In this document: positions 23 through 11,156 of the stretch, piece after piece
Numbering within the stretch: the first letter of the stretch is position 1
How the letters are laid out: each line of letters begins with the position of its first letter
Source of the DNA: an uncultured Eubacteriales bacterium
Lineage (GTDB): Bacteria; Bacillota; Clostridia; Peptostreptococcales; Anaerovoracaceae
Reading direction: 5' to 3'
NCBI GenBank assembly: GCA_902803185.1
Contig: CADCOV010000111.1
Location: 1 to 11,156 of the forward strand
DNA length: 11,156 nucleotides
Translations under genes and position numbers: made by a program
Notes under the pieces: model-generated
What the model was told of the DNA's origin: nothing
Database searches by the model: none
What the model saw: only the letters and a program-made list of their open reading frames with translations

Positions 23-739
23 TCACAGCAGGATCTCCGCCCCGGCGCCCCAGAAAAACACCAGGTAGAGCCCCGCGCAGACCGCGATATACGGCACCAT
101 CGGCAGGGTATCCGTCCGCTTGATCTTCCGCCGCGCCAGCAGGAAGACCATGTGCCCGGCGGACAGCAGCGCTGTCGCCAGGAAGATCAGGATCACCCCG
201 CTCGGCCCCGTGATCAGCCCCAGCGCCGTGAACAGCTTGATGTCGCCGCCCCCCAGTGCCTCTCTCTTATATGCCAGCTTCCCCAGCAGGGCGATGGCCC
301 CCATGAAGCTGAAGCCCACGGCCGCCCCCAGGGCGCACTCCTTCAGGCTGAGGTACGGGAAGAACCCGAAGCCCGTCACCGCCAGCAAAGCGATCAGCTG
401 GTCCGGCACGATCCGGTACTTCCTGTCCGCGATGGCCATCTCCAGCAGCAGCCAGAGCGCCGCGGTGGCCGCCAGCGCGTACTGCGGATCCAGCAGCACC
501 AGCCGGATGTTCAGCACCACGAACAGCATGCTGAAGATGTACTTCCACGGCACGCTCTTCACCCGCTGCGTATACGGGTCCCTGAGCTCCGCCGACGGCT
601 CCTCCCCGTAGTCGCAGAGCCACTTCGCCGGCAGGTGGTTGAAGGCGTAGACCGCCCCGTTCCCCTCCAGGACCCCGACGAAGATCGCCGCCAGGCACGC
701 GATGACGATGTAGATGGTGCTCCCGTATGCTCCGAACAT
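23..739 (-). CDS. A24 family prepilin peptidase (GxGD aspartyl protease)
   Basis: Predicted polytopic membrane protease of 238 aa that would cleave leader peptides of type IV pilin-like or Tad/Flp pilin precursors at the cytoplasmic membrane. The two catalytic aspartates of the family are visible: Asp105 in ADRKYRIVPD and Asp166 in GGGDIK. Around them lie about six or seven hydrophobic segments, roughly residues 8-26, 67-83, 88-104, 114-130, 136-153, 180-200 and 214-232. Residues 27-36 (NGAVYAFNHL) resemble the conserved N-terminal stretch of PilD-type enzymes. The CxxC pairs of the PilD zinc/methyltransferase domain are absent, only Cys42 being present, so N-methylation activity is doubtful. 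The start is set by GGAGGAG four bases upstream of ATG 739. No pilin or secretion genes lie in the window, so its substrate is unknown. Confidence 0.88.
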   Translation of the reverse strand: MFGAYGSTIYIVIACLAAIFVGVLEGNGAVYAFNHLPAKWLCDYGEEPSAELRDPYTQRVKSVPWKYIFSMLFVVLNIRLVLLDPQYALAATAALWLLLEMAIADRKYRIVPDQLIALLAVTGFGFFPYLSLKECALGAAVGFSFMGAIALLGKLAYKREALGGGDIKLFTALGLITGPSGVILIFLATALLSAGHMVFLLARRKIKRTDTLPMVPYIAVCAGLYLVFFWGAGAEILL

Positions 740-743
740 GTTT

Positions 744-764
744 CTCCTCCCGCCCCCTATTATA
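744..764 (-). promoter_or_regulatory. Possible -10 element and ribosome binding site of the prepilin peptidase gene
   Basis: On the minus strand a perfect TATAAT lies at 764-759 and a strong GGAGGAG about 15 bases downstream, just before the ATG at 739. No convincing -35 hexamer is present at the usual distance (TTACCC at a 19-base spacing is the nearest), so the promoter call is tentative. The transcript would have a very short leader. Confidence 0.4.
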
Positions 765-826
765 TATCAAAGCCTGGCGCAGCGGGTAAGGGGATTTTCG
801 GCGGGGTGGGGGCGGGCTGAGGTGCT

Positions 827-894
827 TGGCGCAGAACGGCAAAATCGCCTCATTTGTTATCTCAAATCGCCGTCTTTTCGGGTTCTGCGACAAA
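827..894. repeat. 68-bp hairpin-forming repeat, copy A
   Basis: First of two copies that match at 63 of 68 positions (copy B at 919-986). The outer arms CGCAGAAC (830-837) and GTTCTGCG (882-889) are perfect inverted repeats. Inside, GGC (838-840) can pair with GCC (869-871) and ATTTG (852-856) with CAAAT (863-867). There is no supported coding frame: the 92-bp repeat period is not a multiple of three. Function unknown; it looks like a dispersed intergenic element or a structured RNA. Confidence 0.8.
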
Positions 895-918
895 TCAGCG
901 CGCCCGACCGTCGTTTTT

Positions 919-986
919 TGGCGCAAAACGGCAAAATCACCTCATTTGCTATCTCAAATCGCCGTCTATTCGGGTTTTGCGACAAA
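919..986. repeat. 68-bp hairpin-forming repeat, copy B
   Basis: Second copy of the repeat at 827-894, with five substitutions. Its outer arms are CGCAAAAC (922-929) and GTTTTGCG (974-981). Relative to copy A, a G-to-A change in the left arm is matched by a C-to-T change in the right arm, so pairing is preserved. It ends about 20 bp upstream of the proposed promoter of the nitrogenase-like operon, so it could influence transcription there, but nothing in the sequence proves this. Confidence 0.8.
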
Positions 987-1007
987 CCGCCGGCACCCCC
1001 GCCGCCC

Positions 1008-1036
1008 TTGCGAAGCCGCGCTTCCCGTGATAGCAT
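1008..1036 (+). promoter_or_regulatory. Probable promoter of the nitrogenase-like operon
   Basis: TTGCGA (1008-1013) and TAGCAT (1031-1036) are separated by exactly 17 bp. Each matches the sigma-70 consensus at four of six positions. Transcription would begin near 1043, giving a leader of about 35 nt before the ATG at 1079. No obvious operator palindrome is seen between this promoter and the start codon. Confidence 0.4.
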
Positions 1037-1078
1037 GGAGTCAGTGGGAACAAACCCGCGGAAAAGATGAGGAGAACC

Positions 1079-3289
1079 ATGAGAGAGATCGCGATCTACG
1101 GCAAGGGCGGCATCGGCAAGTCCACCCTTTCCGCGAACATCACGGCCGCCCTGGGGCAGGCCGGCAAGAGAGTCCTGCAGATCGGCTGCGACCCGAAGCA
1201 CGACTCCACCAAACTTTTGACGGGCGGCCGCAGGATCACCACGGTGCTGGACCACATGAGGGAGAACGGCGCTTTGGACTACCGGCTGGATCAGGTTTTG
1301 TTCACCGGGGAATACGGCTGCGGCTGCATCGAGACCGGCGGGCCGAAGCCGGGCGTGGGATGCGCCGGCCGGGGGATCATCTCCGCCTTCGAGCTGCTTG
1401 AGAAGTTCCACGTCAAGGAGGAGTACGATATGGTCCTCTACGACGTGCTGGGGGACGTGGTCTGCGGCGGGTTCGCCGTGCCGATCCGCCGGGAGTACGC
1501 CAATACCATCTTCCTGGTGACCAGCGGGGAGTTCATGTCCCTGTATGCGGCAAACAACATCCTCCGGGGCATCGCCAACTACGACACCGGCCGCAGCCGG
1601 GTCGCCGGGATCCTTTACAATTCCCGCAACGTCAGGGATGAGGACGAGAGGGTCCGCACCTTCGCCGAGGCGGTAGGGCTCCCGATCTTCGCGAAGATCC
1701 CGCGGAGCGACGCCTTCGCCCAATGCGAGCGCCGGAACTGTACCATCGCAAGCCTGGGGCCGGAGGGCTTCCCGGAACTCTACGACCTCTTCACCGGCAT
1801 CGCGGCGCGCATCATCGAAGGCCCGGTCCTCTACCCGGCCGCGCCTCTGACCGACGAGGCTCTGGAGGAACTGCTCCTCTACGGGACCAGGACGGCCCCT
1901 GCCCCGGACGCCGCAGACCCACAGGCCCGAGCGTCTCAGGCCCCGGACGCCCACTACGATCCGGGCACCCTCTCCAAAAACGTCATCCGCAATGAACCTC
2001 TGCACGGCTGCGCCTTCAGCGGCGCTACCAGCACGGCGGTCCACATCCGGGACGCGGTGATCCTCGCCCATTCACCGAAGAGCTGCACCTACCTCGCCTA
2101 CCAGAGCATCAGCTCCACCAACCGGCGCCGCCTGTTCGAACGGGGCGTCCTGCTGCCCTACGGCATGACCCTGAACCTCGCCTCCACCGAGATGGAGGAC
2201 GAAGACATGGTCTTCGGCGGCACCGACAAACTGCTGGACGCCGTCCGGCGCTTCCGGGACCTGCCGCCGGGGGAGCGGCCGAAGGCGGTCATCATCGTGA
2301 GCTCCTGCCCTTCCGGCATCATCGGAGACGACATCGACGAGGCCAAAGCCCTGTCCCTGCCGGACATGCCGGTCATCCCGATCAAAGCCGAGGGCAACCT
2401 GACCGGCGACTACCTCCAGGGCATGCTCAGCGCCTACCGGGAGCTGGCCCTGCAGGTCATCGACCGGAGCGTCACCCCGCAGCCGAAGACGGTGAACGTC
2501 GTCTTCGAGAAGGTGGGCGTCCGGAACACCGAGCAGAACTTCCGCATCATGAGCGGGTTCCTCGCCCGCATGGGCATCCGGGTGAACTGCCGGTTCCTCT
2601 GCAACACGGACTTCGCCTCCCTGCGGAACTTCCTGAGCGCGGAGCTGAACCTGCTGGCCTACCAGGATTACACGGGGAAGCTCCTCCGGGACTTCTTTGC
2701 CGGGGAGTACGGCTGCCGGTTCTTTGACCGCCAGTTCCCGATCGGCTTCCCGGAGACCGCCGAATGGCTCAGGGGCGTGGGCGCCTTCTTCGGCGGTGAG
2801 TCCGCGGCGGAGGCGGAGGCCATCATCGCCGAGAACCGGGCCCGCTACGAGGAGGAGATCGCCGCCTGCCGCAGCGCCCTCGCCGGCAAGCGCCTGATGG
2901 TCTTCACCTACAACCACGACATCGACTGGATCCTGTCCGCCGCCCTGGACGCAGGGATGGAGATCGCGAAGGTCTGCATCTTCAACTTCTCCCAGGACGA
3001 GGGTTTTCGCACCCGGCTCCCGGAGATCCGGGACATCCCGGTGGAGGAGAACTACGACGGCGCCAGGCGGGCCGGGGACATCGCCGCCTTCCGTCCGGAC
3101 ATCATCCTCTCCAACTACGAAAACGCCGCCGCCGGCAAGGGCGTCATCGCGGACACGATCCCGATGTGCCCGGACAACGGCTTCTTCGCCGGGCTCAGCA
3201 TGATGCAGCGCTGGGTCCGCCTGTTCGGAAGGAGCCAGAAAGGAGAATGGCAGAATGACAGAGCGCTATTTGAAAAATATTTTGCCTGA
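1079..3289 (+). CDS. Nitrogenase-like fusion: NifH-type Fe protein joined to NifD-like catalytic subunit
   Basis: Protein of 736 aa. Residues 1-265 are a complete Fe protein of the NifH/BchL/CfbC family: P-loop GKGGIGKS at 8-15, the two [4Fe-4S] ligands Cys95 (PGVGCAGRG) and Cys129 ([10 protein letters not shown]), and the Arg that is ADP-ribosylated in some nitrogenases (Arg98). An Ala/Pro-rich linker covers about 268-298. Residues 300-736 are a NifD-like component-1 subunit with the three P-cluster-type cysteines Cys311 (GCAFSG), Cys336 (SPKSC) and Cys410 (CPSGIIGDD). The FeMo-cofactor Cys region is replaced by NLLAYQDY (524-531), and no clear equivalent of the cofactor His is found near PMCPDN (695-700). 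Normally these subunits are separate proteins. ATG 1079 is chosen over ATG 1067 because AGGAG (1070-1074) precedes it and [11 protein letters not shown] matches NifH starts. Family assignment is strong; substrate unknown. Confidence 0.9.
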
Positions 3290-4568
3290 CAGCCTGACCG
3301 GCCTGATCTTCGGCTTTGAGGGCGTGGAGAAGGCGGTCACGATCCTGAACGGCCCGACGGGCTGCAAGTTCTACCATTCCTCCGTCTCCGACAGCCGCAT
3401 GATCCGGCAGGAGGAGTTCGACCCGCTGAACTTCCCGGAGCTTTGGTACTTCGGCCAGCCCCGGGTGCCTTGCACCTATCTGGACAAGAAGGACTACGTC
3501 TACGGCAGCGAGGGCAAGCTGACGGAGCTGATCGGCTTCATCAAAAGTGAGCTCGCCCCGCCCCTTCTCACCGTGGTGAACTCCCCGGGCGCCGCTTTGA
3601 TCGGCGACGACCTCGAGCGCATCGTCTCCGCGGCCGTCGGCGACATCCCCTTCCTCACCGTGGAGACCCCGGGCTACTCCCGGCCGGTCTGGGAAGGCTT
3701 CTCCGAGGCCTGCTGCCGGCTGATCCGCCTCCTCGCCGCGGAGCAAAACAAAGCGCCTGCCGCCCGGCCCCGGGTCAACCTGCTGGGGCTCTCCCTCTTC
3801 CACCGAAACTATGAGGGCGACCTGGAGGAGCTGAAGCGGGACCTGGCTCTCTGCGGGATCGATGTGAACTGCGCCCTCGCCTGCGGGTGTACACCGGAGG
3901 ATATCCGGCGCCTGCCGGCCGCGGACCTGGATCTGGTGATCGACCCTCTGTACGGCAAGGCCGCAGCGGATCTTCTGGAGGAGCGGTTCGGCATCCCGCA
4001 GCTGACCGCAGAGGGCCTGCCGGTGGGCTTTCAGGCCATGGAAGAGCTGATGGACCGGGTCTGCGAGGCGCTGCAGGGCATGGGCTTTGCGGCCGATCCC
4101 ATGCCATTCCGGGAGGCCAGTGAACGGGCCAGGGCGAGGAGCTTCGTCTTCCTCTCCCGGACCAATTCCCTGACCGGACTGCCAAAGGGGACCCCCTTCG
4201 GCGTCCAGGGCACGCTGCCGGAGGTGCTGGGCTATACCCGGTTCCTGGTGCGCTACTTCGGCATGACCGCAGCCGCGGCGGAGGTCCTGAGCCCGTTGGA
4301 GGGCGAAGCCGGGGATGCGCTCCTTTCGCTCCTCTCGGAGAACGGCATGGAAGCAGCGCTTACGGCAGACATCCTGGAGGCGCCTGCAGAACTCGTCTTC
4401 GGCGACGGCAACCTCATCGCCATGCTGAAGGCCCGGGGCCGCGCCTTCGCCGGCATCGAGACCGCTCTGCCGACCCTCGGGTATAACGATGTGATCCCGA
4501 AGACCCACCTGGGCATCCGGGGCGGCCTGCTCCTCTGTGAGCAGGTCCTGAACGGGCTTCTTTACTGA
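3255..4568 (+). CDS. Nitrogenase-like component 1, NifK/BchB-like subunit
   Basis: Protein of 437 aa, expected to pair with the D half of the upstream fusion protein to form the catalytic component of an ATP-dependent reductase. It shows the component-1 hallmarks NGPTGC (32-37), [11 protein letters not shown] (83-93), IGDD (116-119), [12 protein letters not shown] (254-265) and a closing [14 protein letters not shown] segment. Of the NifK P-cluster cysteines only the one at Cys37 remains. The position of the first is occupied by PDSLTG (11-16), and the third by [10 protein letters not shown], where Ser110/Pro111 replace Cys. The ATG at 3255 lies inside the end of the upstream gene (35-bp overlap), with AGGAG at 3241-3245 nine bases before it, indicating translational coupling. 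It is shorter than NifK (about 520 aa) and closer to the length of BchB/Cfb/Mar-type proteins. Substrate unknown. Confidence 0.88.
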
Positions 4569-4614: not shown

Positions 4615-5049
4615 TCAGATCACATAATCGTCGCCCTTGCTCGGTCCCCAGCTCAGGAGGTCCTCCAGGGTGGTATTGTCCAGGATGCCGTTCACCGCGT
4701 CGGTGACCTGCTGCCAAAGCTTGCGGGTCACGCAGCTGGTGGTCCTGGCGCAGAAGTCGCTGCCCTCGGAGATGCATTGGACCGCGGAGAGATCGCCCTC
4801 CGTAAGCCTTAGGATCTGCCCTGCGGTGTACTGGGACGGCGGACTGGCCAGGAGATACCCTCCCTGGGCGCCCCGGACGCTTCGGACGTAGCCGGCTTTG
4901 TTCAGGATCGCGATGATCTGCTCACAGTATTTCTCGGAGATGTACTGCCGGGAAGCGATGTCCTTGAGCTTCACCGGTTCCCCGGTGTCGTTCTGGGCCA
5001 GGTCCAGCATCATGCGCAGGGCGTAGCGCCCCTTGGTCGAGATCAGCAT
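4615..5049 (-). CDS. Rrf2 family transcriptional regulator (CymR/IscR-like)
   Basis: DNA-binding regulator of 144 aa, the usual Rrf2 length. The N-terminus MLISTKGRYALRMMLDLA and the winged helix-turn-helix with SEKYCEQI and VRGAQGGYLLA (58-68) are family hallmarks. The tail LDNTTLEDLL matches CymR. Three cysteines, Cys92, Cys100 and Cys106, lie where IscR has its [2Fe-2S] ligands (Cys92, 98, 104), before the shared TRKLW motif. The spacing is C-x7-C-x5-C instead of C-x5-C-x5-C, so cluster binding is possible but unproven. The gene starts 3 bp after the cysK stop, with AGGAG inside the end of cysK, so the two are co-transcribed and translationally coupled. In Bacillus and Staphylococcus CymR acts with CysK to repress cysteine-uptake and sulfur genes; the same pairing here supports a CymR-like role. 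Confidence 0.88.
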   Translation of the reverse strand: MLISTKGRYALRMMLDLAQNDTGEPVKLKDIASRQYISEKYCEQIIAILNKAGYVRSVRGAQGGYLLASPPSQYTAGQILRLTEGDLSAVQCISEGSDFCARTTSCVTRKLWQQVTDAVNGILDNTTLEDLLSWGPSKGDDYVI

Positions 5050-5052
5050 GGC

Positions 5053-5985
5053 TCACTCCTGGAACAGCGGGGTCGAGTAGTAGCGGTCGCCGCTGTCCGG
5101 CAGCAGCGCCACGATGGTCTTGCCCTCGTTCTCCGGCAGCTTCGCCAGATCCAGCGCCGCCTTCAGCGCCGCGCCGGAGGAGATGCCCACCAGGATGCCC
5201 TCCTTCTTCGCCAGGAGCTTGGCCGCCGCGAACGGATCCTCGTTATTGATGGCGATGATGCCGTCATAGATCCCGGTGTCCAGCGTCGCCGGCACGAAGT
5301 TGGCGCCGATGCCCTGGATCTTATGCGGGCCTGCAACGCCCTTGCCGAGGACCTGGGAGGTCTCCGGCTCCACCGCATAGACTTTGACGGATGGCTTCTG
5401 CGCCTTCAGATATTTGCCGACGCCGGTCAGGGTCCCGCCGGTACCGACGCCCGCGACGAAGATGTCCACCTCGCCCGCCGTGTCCTCCCAGATCTCCGGG
5501 CCGGTGGTCGCCTCATGCGCCGCCGGGTTCACCGGGTTGTCGAACTGGCCCGGGATGAAGCTGCCCTCGATCTCCGCCGCCAGCTCGTTCGCCTTCTCGA
5601 TGGCGCCCGCCATGCCCTTCGCCCCTTCGGTCAAAACGATCTCCGCGCCGTAGGCCTTGAGGATGTTGCGGCGCTCCACGGACATGGTCTCCGGCATGGT
5701 CAGAATGGTGCGGTATCCCTTGGCCGCCGCGATGGAGGCCAGGCCGATGCCGGTGTTGCCGCTGGTCGGCTCGATGATGGTGCTGCCCGCCTTCAGAAGG
5801 CCCTGCTCCTCCGCGTCCTCGATCATCGCCTTGGCGATCCTGTCCTTGACGGAGCCCGCCGGATTGAAATACTCCAGCTTGACCAGGAGCCTTGCCTTGA
5901 GGCCCTCAGCCTTCTCGATGTTCCTGACCTCCAGCAAAGGGGTCTTCCCGATGATCTCTGTTGCGCTCTGATAGATCTTCGCCAT
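5053..5985 (-). CDS. cysK: Cysteine synthase A (O-acetylserine sulfhydrylase)
   Basis: PLP enzyme of 310 aa, the usual CysK length, that makes L-cysteine from O-acetylserine and sulfide in the cytoplasm. Visible motifs are the PLP-lysine segment NPAGSVKDRIA (about 41-51), the substrate loop PTSGNTG (about 72-78), the phosphate-binding GTGGTLTG and the ISSGAAL segment near the C-terminus. It ends in YYSTPLFQE. The reading frame extends upstream to 6063, but ATG 5985 is preferred. It has AGGTG six bases before it, and the product MAKIYQSATEIIGKTPLLEV matches CysK starts, whereas the upstream extension has no family similarity. The gene is first in an operon with an Rrf2/CymR-type regulator gene and has a long leader with its own promoter. 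Confidence 0.96.
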   Translation of the reverse strand: MAKIYQSATEIIGKTPLLEVRNIEKAEGLKARLLVKLEYFNPAGSVKDRIAKAMIEDAEEQGLLKAGSTIIEPTSGNTGIGLASIAAAKGYRTILTMPETMSVERRNILKAYGAEIVLTEGAKGMAGAIEKANELAAEIEGSFIPGQFDNPVNPAAHEATTGPEIWEDTAGEVDIFVAGVGTGGTLTGVGKYLKAQKPSVKVYAVEPETSQVLGKGVAGPHKIQGIGANFVPATLDTGIYDGIIAINNEDPFAAAKLLAKKEGILVGISSGAALKAALDLAKLPENEGKTIVALLPDSGDRYYSTPLFQE

Positions 5986-6033
5986 ACTGTTCACCTGTTT
6001 CCTTTCTATGTGGATGTGTGATGGTCTTTGGAG

Positions 6034-6124
6034 ACGGACCGCGAAACGGCGGATGCCCTTCATGCTCTATTCAAGCCGCGTCTAAGATGCCTCACATGCC
6101 GGCTGTTCCGCCGGTCCGGTCCGT
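6034..6124 (-). promoter_or_regulatory. Structured 5' leader of cysK (candidate cis-regulatory RNA)
   Basis: Between the proposed promoter and the cysK start lie about 175 untranslated bases. In the transcript ACGGACCG (6124-6117) can pair perfectly with CGGTCCGT (6041-6034). This closes a 91-nt domain that holds a hairpin CCGGC-6 nt-GCCGG and another CCGC-6 nt-GCGG. I do not see the T-box sequence GGGTGGTACCGCG nor an S-box core, so no known riboswitch class is assigned. It may be a novel leader or chance pairing in GC-rich sequence. Confidence 0.3.
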
Positions 6125-7215: not shown

Positions 7216-7241
7216 GCGCGCAGCCCCGAAGAACCGCGCGC
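7216..7241 (-). terminator. UUCG-capped hairpin, possible terminator of the Hsp70 operon
   Basis: In the minus-strand transcript GCGCGCGGUUC / GGGCUGCGCGC forms an 11-bp stem (with G-U pairs) around a UUCG tetraloop closed by C-G, a very stable fold. It is followed by UUUGUUG, a short U-rich stretch. It lies between the repeat mosaic and the short ORF at 7190. The weak U-tract leaves open that it is a leader hairpin and not a terminator. Confidence 0.5.
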
Positions 7242-7243
7242 CA

Positions 7244-7271
7244 AATATATCCAAAATCTGCGCTCTGTCAG
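7244..7271 (-). promoter_or_regulatory. Possible promoter of the short ORF/flavodoxin genes, with its -35 inside a repeat
   Basis: On the minus strand CTGACA (7271-7266) and TATATT (7249-7244) are 16 bp apart, each one mismatch from consensus. The -35 is part of the first copy of the 21-bp repeat described separately. The start point would fall at the edge of the adjacent hairpin, so the call is tentative. Confidence 0.35.
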
Positions 7272-7278
7272 ACCCCCT

Positions 7279-7310
7279 GGGTTGATCCCCAACGAGCGAT
7301 CCCAACCCCA
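7279..7310. repeat. 32-bp hairpin element, copy 1
   Basis: Identical over 32 bp to 7449-7480. It begins GGGTTGATC and ends GATCCCAACCCCA, so its ends can pair (GGGTTG with CAACCC and ATC with GAT, with a 2-nt bulge) around a 10-nt loop. It follows repeat copy 1 and runs into copy 2. Confidence 0.8.
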
Positions 7311-7385
7311 GATTCGCGCTCTGTCAGACTCAAAATCTGCGCTCTTTCAGACACCCTGGGGTGGTCTCCGGCGAACGCCTCCGCA

Positions 7386-7400
7386 GGCGCTGCAAGCGCC
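7386..7400. repeat. Short hairpin of the first composite module
   Basis: GGCGCT-GCA-AGCGCC, a perfect 6-bp stem with a 3-nt loop. It is flanked by CCGCA on the left and GAGGAC on the right, both shared with the hairpin at 7533-7547. The stem sequence differs between the two copies but both are fully paired. Confidence 0.65.
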
Positions 7401-7448
7401 GAGGACTTAGCGAGCAGAACCCAAGATCTGCGCCCTGTCAGACTCGCA

Positions 7449-7480
7449 GGGTTGATCCCCAACGAGCGATCCCAACCCCA
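7449..7480. repeat. 32-bp hairpin element, copy 2
   Basis: Exact second copy of 7279-7310, 170 bp away, again lying between two copies of the 21-bp motif. Exact identity beside diverged neighbours suggests recent duplication or selection on the whole element. Confidence 0.8.
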
Positions 7481-7500
7481 AATCTGCGCCCTTTCAGACA

Positions 7501-7580
7501 CCGTTAGGCTATCCTGCCTGAACGATTCCGCAGGCAGCTTCGCTGCCGAGGACCAAGTGAAGGCAGGACTAGCCTAACGG
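7501..7580. repeat. Large imperfect palindrome with nested hairpin, overlapping the Hsp70-like stop codon
   Basis: CCGTTAGGCTATCCTGCCT (7501-7519) pairs with the sequence at 7561-7580 over 19 bp with a single bulged base. Inside is GGCAGC-TTC-GCTGCC (7533-7547), the counterpart of the hairpin at 7386-7400. The right arm contains the TAG stop and the last codons of the Hsp70-like gene. It may act as a transcript 3'-end structure, although it lacks a T-tract. Confidence 0.7.
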
Positions 7581-9479
7581 AATCTCTACCACTTCCGCCA
7601 TCTTCTCCAAACACATCTCGATCTGCGCCGAGATATCCTCCACCATGCGTTTGGTGATCTCGTCGCTCTTATCCTTCTCCAGAGACTTGTAGAAGTTCTC
7701 TTTGACGCCGTCGCTGATGGCATCCATCCGGGAGCGGAAGGCCGCCTTCGGGACGACTTTGCGCATCGGGCCCGGGATATCCATGTTCAGCAGGGCTTCC
7801 TCCATCTTCCGGCGTCCCAGGATCAGGACGATGAAGGACAGGGTGATGCCCGCCAGGATGCCGATCGGCCCCTCCAGCACCAGGGCCGCGCCGCTGCCGC
7901 CGCACAGGAGGCCGATGATGATCGAGATGATCGAGTCGATCATCAGGGTGATCTCCTCCACCGCAAAGATGTTGCGGGCGTCCAGGCTGATGTCCAGGTC
8001 GGAGACCTGCAGGAAGGAGCGCAGGCTCATCGAGGAGTACGGCACGTTGTGGCGCACGCAGATCGGCACCGTGTACTCCTCCAGCTCCTCCGCCACCGGC
8101 TTCAGCCAGCTGGTGATCGGCTTGACCAGGAGCGCCCTGGCCTCCTCGCTGCGGACGAAGGCGGCGATGTCGTTCTTCAGCACCTCATCCGCGTCGGAGA
8201 GCTTGCGGAGCTCGCCGTTCCGCCAGCGCAGGAAGACCGGTTCCGCCACCTTTTCCAGGATCGGGTCGATCAAAGCGTCCACCGTCCCCTTATACAGCTC
8301 TTCGATGTGCCGCTCCACGATGTCCTCCACCTTGGCGGACTTCATGAGCTGGTCCACTTCCTCCCGGAACTCCCGCATGTCCTCGTCGATGCGGCCGCTC
8401 CAGGCCAGACCCTTGGAGACGGAGAACTCCGGCTCCGAGCCCCGGATCACGATGGCCTCCGGGAACACCTCGGCGCACCATTCCCGGATCTCCGGGAGTT
8501 TGGAGACGCCGCCGGTCAGGAACAAAAGCTCCGGCTTGCTGCCTTTGATGTTGTCGCGGACGTCGTAGAGGCTCTGGACGAAGACCTCGCGGAAGGACCG
8601 GTTCCCCAGCCGTTCCACCTTCTTCTCCAGGAGCTTCTTCGCGATCTTTTCGTCCATGGTGATCGTGAGCTTGAGGGGCTCGCGGTAGCGGATCATGACG
8701 CTCTCTTTGCAAGGGTTCACCTTCCAGTAGGCCTCGTCGGAGAAGTACTTCTCCTTTAGGCGCCGGGCCGCGAACTCGCAGTAGTTCTTCCAGGCCTCGC
8801 TGTTCTCCAGGGTCTGCCGGATCCGGCGGGAGAACAGAGAGCCCTCGATGGCCTCGTCCAGCAGGATCTCGTCCATGATGCCGCCGCCCAGCACCACCTC
8901 GCCGGCGGTCTGCATCTCCACTTCCTTGCCGCCCATGATGTAGGCGAAGTCCGTGGTGGAGGAGCCGATGTCCACCACCAGCACCGGCTTGGACATGATG
9001 TCGTGGCCGATCTGCAGGTGCCTGGACTGGCAGGCGCTGATCAAAGCCGCCCGGGACTCTGAGACGATCTTGGCCGGCGGATAGCCCGCCTGCTCGAAGA
9101 TCGAGCGGTAGAACTCCCTGGTGTTGCCGTCCCAGCCCGCCGGACAGCCGATGTAGAAGCTGGTATCGTCATTTTTGATGAGGGCCGCGCTGCCGTAGAG
9201 CTCCCCCAGCACGCCCGCCGCAAAGGTCTTCACGTCGTCGGCGCAGCCCGGGTCCGTCAGGAAATGGCTCTTGAAGCGGAGCTTTCTTTTGATCGCGTCC
9301 GCATGGTAGCAGGCCTGCTCGCCCACCAGGATCTCGCCGGTCCTGAGCTGGGCGTAGGCGGAGATGAAGCTCTTGGCCCCGCAGATCTCCAGCTGCTCCG
9401 GTGCCTCCGCCGATCCCTTTTCCAGCCTGGAGACCGCGCTTTCCGCGTCCCCCAGGTCAAATCCGTAAAAACGTTCCAT
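7569..9479 (-). CDS. Membrane-anchored Hsp70-like ATPase
   Basis: Protein of 636 aa. Residues 1-370 form an actin/Hsp70-type ATPase domain: phosphate-1 loop near GFDLGDAESAV (6-16), the GCPAGWDGNTREFYRSIFEQAG segment (from 111), VSESRAAL (139-146), phosphate-2 VDIGSSTTDFAY (169-180), GGGIMDEIL (198-206) and adenosine motif LTGGVSKLPEI (321-331). The second half is not a DnaK substrate-binding domain. It is a charged, helical region (about 370-505) followed by two hydrophobic segments (about 509-528 and 533-555) and a 75-residue basic, helical tail. The protein is thus probably held at the membrane with both large parts cytosolic. ATG 9479 directly follows the stop codon of the upstream gene, with GGAGG inside that gene's end, so the two are tightly coupled. 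Substrates and function are unknown; assignment to the Hsp70/actin ATPase superfamily is confident. Confidence 0.85.
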   Translation of the reverse strand: MERFYGFDLGDAESAVSRLEKGSAEAPEQLEICGAKSFISAYAQLRTGEILVGEQACYHADAIKRKLRFKSHFLTDPGCADDVKTFAAGVLGELYGSAALIKNDDTSFYIGCPAGWDGNTREFYRSIFEQAGYPPAKIVSESRAALISACQSRHLQIGHDIMSKPVLVVDIGSSTTDFAYIMGGKEVEMQTAGEVVLGGGIMDEILLDEAIEGSLFSRRIRQTLENSEAWKNYCEFAARRLKEKYFSDEAYWKVNPCKESVMIRYREPLKLTITMDEKIAKKLLEKKVERLGNRSFREVFVQSLYDVRDNIKGSKPELLFLTGGVSKLPEIREWCAEVFPEAIVIRGSEPEFSVSKGLAWSGRIDEDMREFREEVDQLMKSAKVEDIVERHIEELYKGTVDALIDPILEKVAEPVFLRWRNGELRKLSDADEVLKNDIAAFVRSEEARALLVKPITSWLKPVAEELEEYTVPICVRHNVPYSSMSLRSFLQVSDLDISLDARNIFAVEEITLMIDSIISIIIGLLCGGSGAALVLEGPIGILAGITLSFIVLILGRRKMEEALLNMDIPGPMRKVVPKAAFRSRMDAISDGVKENFYKSLEKDKSDEITKRMVEDISAQIEMCLEKMAEVVEIPLG

Positions 9480-10352
9480 CTATCTTCCTCCGGCAGCCAT
9501 GCCCTTCTTCAGCAGCTTGCCCTCCGACACCAGCGCAGGGCGGATCGTTCCGCCGCCGCCCGGCATCAGATCAAAGTACTCCCGGTTGGTGCCGTCGTAT
9601 TCCACGGCCTCCACCCCGTATCCGTGCAGGAAATATTTGAGCTCGGACAGCTTGTCCAAAGCGAACTCCCCGTCCCCGGTCTGGGCCGCCTCCAGCAGCC
9701 CCGCGTAGAGGTCGAGCTCCTTAGCGCCCAGCATCCGCCGGCCGGTCTCCACGGTCTCGGCCCGCTGGGCCCGCTTCTCCTCGGCGTCGATCTTGTCCAG
9801 CTCCTGGTCCATGGCCAGGGTCAAAGAGGACAGGCACCGCCAGATGCGGCCCGCGTCCACCCGAAGCTCCGTCTGGCGCTCCTTCTTCCGGGAGGCCGCC
9901 TTCTGCTTCGGGAACCGGGCCCGGCCCGCCGCGTACAGGGCGACGACGCCGATGGCGAGGAACACGTAGGTCAGCGGGCTTCTGTTCGCCGTCTGGTCCA
10001 GCGCTCCCATCATCAGGGAGAAGGCACCCAGGCACATCAGGCCCAGCAGGGCCAGGTACAGGGTGGTGAACGGGAACCGGCGCTGCTTCACGCCGGCGTC
10101 CGCCTCAGGGTCTCTTTCCCAGACCCTCGTCTCACCCACGCTGTCCACCAGCATGGCGGTGAGGCTCGCCGCCCGGACCATCCGGGAGGCCGTCTCTCTG
10201 CCCCGGGCCGTGTCGCAGTCCTCGTTGTATCGATACAGGATCCGCTCCAGCTCATCGGTGATGACCTTCTCCGCCCGTTCCGGCGTTCCCGCCGATTCCA
10301 GCTCGGAGAGGAGCTTCTCCTTGTCGCTTTCCAGATAATCGTGCATCTTCAT
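9480..10352 (-). CDS. Two-helix membrane protein with GrpE-like C-terminal domain
   Basis: Protein of 290 aa. An N-terminal charged helical region (1-90) is followed by two hydrophobic segments (about 95-117 and 125-144) and a Lys/Arg-rich stretch. A cytosolic helical domain (about 160-245) then leads into a short beta-like end. The tail, with YGVEAVEYDG (245-254), then TIRPALVSEGKLLKKG (269-284), resembles the end of GrpE, the nucleotide-exchange factor of Hsp70, where a GVE.I..G motif is followed by RPA.V and a Lys. The similarity is by eye and needs profile confirmation. Placed directly before the Hsp70-like gene with no gap, it is a good candidate for that ATPase's membrane-bound partner. 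Its ATG shares an ATGA overlap with the pyrC stop, with AGGAGGAG eight bases upstream. Cellular role unknown. Confidence 0.7.
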   Translation of the reverse strand: MKMHDYLESDKEKLLSELESAGTPERAEKVITDELERILYRYNEDCDTARGRETASRMVRAASLTAMLVDSVGETRVWERDPEADAGVKQRRFPFTTLYLALLGLMCLGAFSLMMGALDQTANRSPLTYVFLAIGVVALYAAGRARFPKQKAASRKKERQTELRVDAGRIWRCLSSLTLAMDQELDKIDAEEKRAQRAETVETGRRMLGAKELDLYAGLLEAAQTGDGEFALDKLSELKYFLHGYGVEAVEYDGTNREYFDLMPGGGGTIRPALVSEGKLLKKGMAAGGR

Positions 10353-11156
10353 AGATGTCTCTCCTCCTCAAATACGACTTCGCCGCCGCAGACCGTATAC
10401 CGTACGCGGCCGGTCAGCTTCGTCCCGATGAACGGGCTGTTCTTGCTCCTGGAGGCGAAGGACTCTTCCGTCACCGTCCACTCCTCCTCCGGATCAAAGA
10501 GCACCAGGTCCGCCGGCCCGCCCTCCTGCAGCCTCCCTCCCGGGAGCCCGTAGAGTTCCGCCGGCTGGGCGGTCAGCTTATCCAGCATCTCGCTCATGGT
10601 GAGGTGGCCCGGCTTCACCAGGTTGGTGATGGCGAGGGCCAGGGCCGTCTCCAGACCCACGATGCCGCTCGGGGCCTCGAACAATCCCCGGTCCTTCTCC
10701 TCCTTCGAATGAGGCGCGTGATCCGTGGCGATGAGCCTGAGCGTCCCGTCCCTGAGGCCCTCGATGATCGCCTGCCGGTCCGCCTCCGTGCGCAGCGGCG
10801 GGTTCATCTTCGCGTAGGCCCCGTGGGTGAGCACCGCCTCCTCCGTCAGGGAGAAGTGGTGCGGGGTGGCTTCGCCCCAGACGTCGGCGCCCAGCGCCCT
10901 GGCCCGGCGGATCGCCTCCACCGCTCCCGCGGAGCTGATGTGCTGGAAATCCACCCTGGCGCCGGTCTGCAGGGCAAGCCTGGCGTCCCTCGCCACCATG
11001 GTGTCCTCCGCCGCCCGGTCCGCGCCCGGGAATCCCAGCGCCGCGCTGACGGCGCCCCGGTTCACGCCGGCCCTGGCCACGAAGGCCGGGTCCTCCTCGT
11101 GGAGGCTGATGACCGCACCCAGCTTTGCCGCCCTCTCGAAGGCGGTCCTGAGCAGC
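10349..11156 (-). CDS. pyrC: Dihydroorotase, C-terminal part (start beyond window)
   Basis: Zinc amidohydrolase of de novo pyrimidine synthesis, interconverting carbamoyl-aspartate and dihydroorotate. The C-terminal 268 residues are present; a complete class I enzyme is about 425 aa, so the N-terminal HxH metal motif lies outside the window. Visible signatures are LHEEDPAFV near the right edge, the metal-binding His in DFQHIS, ATPHHFSLTEE, the MNPPLR segment and the catalytic ATDHAPHSKEEK (about 10700). The frame continues without interruption to the window edge, and an internal GTG at 11080 is not the true start. The stop TGA overlaps the next gene's ATG by 4 bp, so pyrC and the two membrane chaperone-like genes are likely one transcript. 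Whether the other pyr genes lie upstream cannot be seen. Confidence 0.93.
   Translation of the reverse strand, partial: LLRTAFERAAKLGAVISLHEEDPAFVARAGVNRGAVSAALGFPGADRAAEDTMVARDARLALQTGARVDFQHISSAGAVEAIRRARALGADVWGEATPHHFSLTEEAVLTHGAYAKMNPPLRTEADRQAIIEGLRDGTLRLIATDHAPHSKEEKDRGLFEAPSGIVGLETALALAITNLVKPGHLTMSEMLDKLTAQPAELYGLPGGRLQEGGPADLVLFDPEEEWTVTEESFASRSKNSPFIGTKLTGRVRYTVCGGEVVFEEERHL

Follow-up and report, generated by a model that had tools for sequence, protein, structure and literature searches.

What does a nitrogenase-like enzyme do when its reductase is part of the same chain as its catalytic subunit? The question is raised by an 11,156-nucleotide stretch of DNA from an uncultured Eubacteriales bacterium (contig CADCOV010000111.1; hereafter the window, G000:C111 in our numbering), in which a single open reading frame (ORF), HD, joins a Fe-protein domain (H) to a NifD-like domain (D) and is followed by an overlapping NifK-like gene, K. 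Our analysis suggests that HD-K is an ATP-driven, tethered nitrogenase-like reductase whose substrate is probably an imported corrinoid, in a step of vitamin B12 salvage or remodelling, a reading that we favour with modest confidence. More tentatively, the HD-K family as a whole may represent a nitrogenase-superfamily enzyme of B12 metabolism, one-chain and self-tethered, whose Fe protein no longer leaves in each cycle. The substrates of the fused enzyme are probably B12-type molecules and not nitrogen. We propose a corrinoid because the HD-K genes of many relatives sit with B12 uptake and salvage genes and with cobalamin riboswitches.

The architecture had been described in an earlier note made from the sequence alone, and PF00142, PF00148 and AlphaFold agree with it: one 736-residue ORF with a Fe-protein domain, a linker and a NifD-like domain, overlapped by a NifK-like gene (Table 1). 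In the AlphaFold model, H and D each form a confidently predicted domain (for HD, mean predicted local distance difference test (pLDDT) 86.9 and predicted template modelling score (pTM) 0.78), and the two are joined by residues 274-291 with pLDDT below 50; we therefore regard the linker as real; its length and letters differ from homologue to homologue. The K model has a mean pLDDT of 89.9 and a pTM of 0.90. In a Foldseek search with the full HD chain, all 50 matches listed were solved Fe-protein chains, 41-45% identical to H, because the H domain fills those 50 matches. The HD and K reading frames share 35 nt, and an in-frame start of K lies 32-38 nt inside the HD end in 27 of 36 fused loci (two of which, L016 and L160, come from the same organism); this recurring overlap suggests translational coupling. 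In the window's own genome, which is 79% complete, there is no PF00148 match besides HD and K and no second clear NifH, the other PF00142 matches being weak (34 and 19 bits).

The fusion recurs well beyond this genome. With full-length HD as the query and candidates limited to 0.55-1.75 times its length, 2549 proteins were found at E <= 0.001; each of the best 120 of these 2549 homologues, 55-97% identical to HD, matches PF00142 as well as PF00148, and the closest among the matches listed (97%) is named Eubacterium sp. When the D part served as the query, fusions appeared among the matches listed down to 41% identity; D-part identities there were 42% for Oxobacter, 42-44% for Treponema and 46% for Eubacterium callanderi, and 19 of the 120 matches listed, of 284-536 residues, were without PF00142 and may be contig-edge pieces. 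Carriers are scattered, comprising 17 of 297 genomes of the order and 5 of 398 of the phylum (own genome counted in each) and, within the genus, two of the 12 other genomes examined (G004 and G008). Archaeal HD occurs in Methanoregula, Methanococcoides, Methanomethylophilaceae and others, and there is one Myxococcota locus. The window comes from a 1.73-Mb assembly in 304 contigs, which leaves room for the view that HD is a chimera produced by a frameshift or an assembly error. However, fusion in the best 120 of 2549 homologues and in assemblies of no more than two contigs (G004, G008, G936 and G1051) rules out sequencing error, frameshift and chimera, and we give that view practically no weight. 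The refutation by sequencing error that the earlier note had allowed for thus fails.

In the earlier note, the reductase of the known enzymes was a separate dimer; in this respect it is outdated, since the arrangement has precedents. Fused nifH/nifE-like ORFs followed by nifN-like genes were mentioned for Archaea, Firmicutes and Deltaproteobacteria by Dos Santos et al. in 2012, as "data not shown" and with no function given in that passage (PMC3464626), and "fused nifH/nifE" is tabulated for a methanogen (PMC4153887). The fusion is already known, and it is widespread in bacteria and archaea. As far as we searched the open-access literature, its link to corrinoids is not in print.

Variants of the fusion were also observed. 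At 2627-5884 of L014 (loci are labelled L, genomes G), in a Myxococcota metagenome-assembled genome (MAG), a single 1085-residue ORF carries two tandem NifH domains and NifD, followed by K. Its two H domains are nearest to each other in the tree yet clearly diverged, and the doubling is therefore not a simple assembly duplicate; the H-H-D chain is possibly a covalent Fe-protein dimer. In L019 (4329-6817, a Lachnospiraceae MAG), H and D are two ORFs in overlapping frames, through a frameshift or a secondary split. L007 has, at 8736-10828, a separate nitrogenase-like K-like gene and a NifH gene a few kb downstream of its fused HD-K.

HD retains intact Fe-protein motifs, including two invariant cysteines that we take, from their role in NifH, to be [4Fe-4S] ligands. 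Three ligand-type cysteines in D and one in K are present in 16 of 16 fused loci aligned. The ligands of the iron-molybdenum cofactor (FeMo-co) are absent: the columns of Cys275 and His442 are without Cys or His in all 16 fused D, and the His442 column is a gap in every one. In dark-operative protochlorophyllide oxidoreductase (DPOR), the fourth cluster ligand is Asp, whereas K has Cys; in our alignment, which speaks of positions and not of an observed cluster, the BchB row has a gap at the Cys37 column of K with an Asp adjoining. The K of L049, the nearest unfused relative, keeps the NifK-type cysteines, so that in this sample their loss goes with the fused group.

HD-K falls into no characterised clade among those tested, as the earlier note had anticipated. 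Neither HD nor K reached the NCBIfam cut-offs of the Nif, DPOR, chlorophyllide oxidoreductase (COR) or Cfb models. Molybdenum nitrogenase NifHDK was rejected on nifH at 299.5 bits (cut-off 394.35), nifD at 101.7 (653.55) and the missing FeMo-co ligands; DPOR on bchL at 198.2 (345.15), bchN at 42.1 (419.95) and BchB at 91.9 (490.35); COR on BchX at 203.4 (331.2) and BchZ at 30.3 (529); and CfbCD on CfbC at 303.3 (402) and CfbD at 32.7 for HD and 34.5 for K (268.4). CfbC is nonetheless the best NCBIfam model for H, with nifH just behind. CfbC and CfbD, the Ni-sirohydrochlorin a,c-diamide reductive cyclase, carry out tetrapyrrole chemistry but are not fused, and CfbD is a single homomeric subunit; DPOR likewise differs in its separate BchL dimer. 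Quick trees of 35 rows (D and K) and 38 rows (H), with 16 fused loci, set the fused rows apart by a single branch, with Shimodaira-Hasegawa-like approximate likelihood ratio test values of 99 for K, 78 for D and 66 for H. Their references were plasmid-annotated Nif, BchXYZ, BchLNB, one CfbD (TIGR03282) and unfused loci with partly our own labels, isethionate reductase (Isr) being absent. Among unfused loci, L049 comes nearest in profile score (D 172 bits, K 192 bits), with L019 and the partial L023 and L024 set aside.

The gene context of relatives narrows the substrate. A simple script that takes the longest ORFs was used to call genes around the 36 fused loci, and besides K no neighbouring gene is general among them. 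Cobalamin riboswitches (RF00174) reach the gathering score in 14 of the 36, or 13 of 35 once L160, a duplicate of L016, is removed. By comparison, none of the 11 nitrogenase-like loci of other kinds that were scanned (L022, L027, L037, L047, L048, L056, L059, L060, L063, L065 and L073) has one (Fisher p 0.020), and among bacterial loci alone the counts are 13/29 and 0/9 (p 0.016); four partial or split fused loci (L157, L162, L163 and L019) also have none. In L007 the riboswitch directly precedes HD, at a distance of 166 nt and without an intervening gene. It is upstream on the same strand in L006, L152, L016 and L155 as well, with 1, 1, 4 and 4 intervening ORFs of more than 110 residues, respectively, and no opposite-strand ORF; in L150-L153 it is found just past K. 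Across the 22 carrier genomes, 11 of 23 HD loci have a riboswitch within 10 kb, whereas the riboswitch density of these same genomes (213 matches in 62.1 Mb) predicts 1.7, a figure that is only rough because riboswitches cluster in carrier genomes.

B12 uptake and salvage genes adjoin HD-K, or unfused H-D-K, in several relatives. L049 has a run of two riboswitches, a TonB receptor, ExbB, TonB, an unidentified protein, Peripla_BP_2, FecCD, H, D and K. The run in L016 comprises the riboswitch, CbiQ, an energy-coupling factor (ECF) ATPase, an SLH protein with a toroid match below its cut-off, a DUF4430 protein, HD, K and an ECF S component; the CbiQ and ECF ATPase identities were read off their L149 homologues. 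In L012, from Methanococcoides, CbiZ, ChlI, a second chelatase-type AAA+VWA protein, a TIM-barrel protein, Peripla_BP_2, FecCD and an ATP-binding cassette (ABC) ATPase precede HD and K, and CbiK and CobN (in two ORFs) follow. L013, L017, L018 and L020 likewise have FecCD with its ATPase, and L013 and L017 also have CobN. The L012 cluster resembles a CbiZ/CobN/Mg-chelatase/BtuCD operon of Dehalobacter restrictus, which lies behind a cobalamin riboswitch and is 346-fold induced by corrinoid starvation (PMC4285132); the word nitrogenase does not occur in that text. In vertebrate transcobalamins, DUF4430 forms the C-terminal domain (PMC4350170); among the genomes compared here it is present in 22/22 carrier versus 20/32 hand-picked non-carrier genomes (p 0.0007, among genomes related by descent).

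Two other proteins of these loci were recorded. An AP_endonuc_2 TIM-barrel protein adjoins HD in L006 (845-1882), with relatives in L012 (5423-6472), L150 (16774-17499) and L155 (17960-18949). The remodelling enzyme CbiR belongs to this superfamily (PMC7733943), but we do not claim the protein as CbiR: the L012 member scores 26 against a Pfam cut-off of 31.1, and no NCBIfam CbiR match was found. A Dph6-like ATP pyrophosphatase lies directly upstream of HD and in the same direction in L150, L151, L153 and L155 (PF01902 on the L150 member); it could be an amidating or adenylating partner.

Several observations weigh against a corrinoid role. The 11 riboswitch controls were hand-picked from 61 other nitrogenase-like loci, and 22 of 35 fused loci, all six archaeal ones included, are without RF00174. 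Of the riboswitches counted, those of L144, L147 and L148 are divergent, those of L011 and L159 are cut off from HD by opposite-strand genes and that of L016 is marginal (34.6 bits against a gathering score of 31.5); dropping L016, L011 and L159 gives 10/35 versus 0/11 (p 0.088). DUF4430 is not proof of B12 binding. CbiC, tried as a marker of salvagers, is equally frequent in genomes with and without HD (18/22 and 23/32, p 0.52), and HD-K therefore does not mark salvagers. Tree support for the fused group is weak for D and H, and many branches are long. Finally, the window itself has no corrinoid riboswitch or salvage gene near HD-K among the eight proteins scanned: RF00174 at gathering score is missing from it and from its same-genus relatives L142 and L143, and window positions 600-1200 hold no riboswitch even at E <= 5.

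Since the window's own neighbours do not show a corrinoid role, we infer it for this HD-K by kinship with relatives. The Pfam and NCBIfam scan covered eight window proteins (an ORF at 10349-11155 on the minus strand, cut off at the edge, lay outside it); as the earlier note had stated, no nifB-, nifE- or nifN-like or tetrapyrrole gene is among them. Elsewhere, the own genome has four cobalamin riboswitches, one of them near a DUF4430 protein. Homologues of genes on the contig of this riboswitch lie near HD-K in related genomes, one gene in four loci (presumably a MoxR-type ATPase) and another in one locus (presumably a DUF58-type protein).

Downstream of HD-K in the window come a CymR-like regulator and cysK, which would fit a role in sulfur assimilation, as a reductase of carbon-sulfur bonds akin to Isr or methylthio-alkane reductase (Mar). 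A homologue of this cysK lies upstream of HD in L154 too, in opposite orientation, and a pyridoxal phosphate-dependent enzyme lies downstream in L142 and L143. Mar is a nitrogenase-like HDK too, although its H is a separate protein, and the best match of the K profile among solved structures in the PDB is a chain of the Mar complex, 9d9u_C (129.6 bits). However, the Cys275-type cofactor ligand is absent in 16/16 fused D and present in L176, a locus that we labelled Mar-like from its neighbours; Mar uses nitrogenase metalloclusters (PMC12552129), and the FeMo-co-type ligands are absent from fused D. Isr, reported from intestinal bacteria, is likewise three-part and without FeMo-co ligands, but its H is separate, its radical S-adenosylmethionine (SAM) protein IsrB is essential, and its cysteines are one in IsrD and three in IsrK (PMC11423573), the reverse of the pattern in all 16 fused loci. 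Moreover, no radical SAM gene of the isrB type is among the eight scanned window proteins, and the riboswitch contexts of relatives do not fit a sulfur role. Isr and Mar were rejected as identities for HD-K, and we consider a sulfur role unlikely; it is kept as a rival only, because the CymR-like gene and cysK are convergent to HD-K and seldom common to relatives.

The riboswitches and the archaeal gene neighbours leave two further explanations. Genes for isozymes that work without B12, metE among them, are also under cobalamin riboswitch control (PMC11260477), and HD-K might thus be a B12-sparing isozyme, induced by B12 shortage to replace a B12-dependent reaction with one that needs no B12. 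We regard this as quite unlikely, given that HD-K or H-D-K lies within uptake and salvage runs in L016, L049 and L012 and not beside alternative metabolic enzymes. Alternatively, HD-K might reduce another tetrapyrrole (haem, a product of chlorophyll degradation or one that contains nickel) or be the reductive demetallation partner of a CobN-type chelatase: CobN, ChlI/D and CbiK adjoin archaeal HD-K, archaeal loci are without RF00174, and structure comparison puts the K fold closest to DPOR chains. RF00174 and CbiZ point instead to corrinoids, which makes this explanation rather unlikely. The substrate, left open by the earlier note, can be narrowed, the gene context of relatives pointing to corrinoids, while the reaction is still inferred.

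If HD-K is indeed a tethered corrinoid reductase, it may work as follows. Because a Fe-protein cluster requires two subunits, two H domains would pair around one [4Fe-4S] cluster, each contributing its Cys95 and Cys129. The pair would hydrolyse ATP and hand on single low-potential electrons to a DPOR-like [4Fe-4S]-type cluster held by three Cys of D and one of K, from which they would pass to the substrate at the site that FeMo-co occupies in nitrogenase, whose ligands are missing here. This substrate would be an imported corrinoid, either cobamide or cobinamide, undergoing a step of B12 salvage or remodelling; our first guess for the reaction is reduction of cobalt to Co(I), and our second is ring reduction. 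Translational coupling would keep HD and K in step. A 1:1 ratio of H to D and a restricted Fe-protein cycle would follow from the architecture. An (HD)2K2 particle would have one Fe-protein dimer for its two halves, unless two particles share, and the H-H-D chain of L014 would supply one dimer per half.

Table 1. Coordinates of HD-K and its neighbours in the window.
Feature	Position	Strand	Basis
Shine-Dalgarno-like GAGGAGA ahead of HD ATG at 1079	1069..1075	+	Read from sequence
Fused NifH-NifD-like gene (HD), 736 aa	1079..3289	+	ORF translation and Pfam domains
H domain, Fe-protein type, residues 1-266	1079..1876	+	PF00142, residues 2-266, 1.5e-89
P-loop GKGGIGKS, H residues 8-15	1100..1123	+	Every position >= 90% conserved, 109 sequences
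Cys95, counterpart of first Fe-protein [4Fe-4S] ligand	1361..1363	+	Invariant, 109 sequences
Cys129, counterpart of second Fe-protein [4Fe-4S] ligand	1463..1465	+	Invariant, 109 sequences
Pro/Ala-rich linker, residues 268-297	1880..1969	+	Low pLDDT; variable among homologues
D domain, residues 299-736	1973..3286	+	PF00148, residues 311-713, 1.3e-67
Cys311 (NifD Cys62 position)	2009..2011	+	Invariant, 109 sequences; aligned
Cys336 (NifD Cys88 position)	2084..2086	+	Invariant, 109 sequences; aligned
Cys410 (NifD Cys154 position)	2306..2308	+	Invariant, 109 sequences; aligned
NifK-like gene (K), 437 aa	3255..4568	+	PF00148, residues 21-435, 8e-43
K Cys37 (NifK Cys95 position), sole P-cluster-type Cys left in K	3363..3365	+	Invariant, 101 sequences; aligned
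Rrf2-family regulator, CymR-like	4615..5049	-	PF02082 2.8e-42; CymR 133.5 bits, below cut-off 195
Cysteine synthase CysK	5053..6063	-	TIGR01139 435.9 bits, above cut-off

The rest of the window holds some further features. Upstream of HD, positions 826-894 and 918-986 are two 69-nt direct copies, 93% alike, with no weighty Rfam match. By eye, a short motif around AATCTGCGCTCTGTCAGAC recurs in several scattered places between genes at 7240-7510. The minus strand at 7569-10352 encodes a 636-residue protein with an Hsp70-like part and a 290-residue neighbour without a Pfam match. A prepilin peptidase-like gene is a further neighbour of HD-K.

Taken together, what is new here is the corrinoid gene context, the fusion itself having been known. 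If our reading is correct, corrinoids would join the substrates of nitrogenase-like enzymes, and a so far uncharacterised clade, with members in Firmicutes, treponemes, methanogens and a Myxococcota genome, would gain a function. HD-K would then be a candidate for a low-potential reduction step in cobamide salvage. The fusion would also offer a natural tethered reductase for asking whether turnover needs Fe-protein dissociation.

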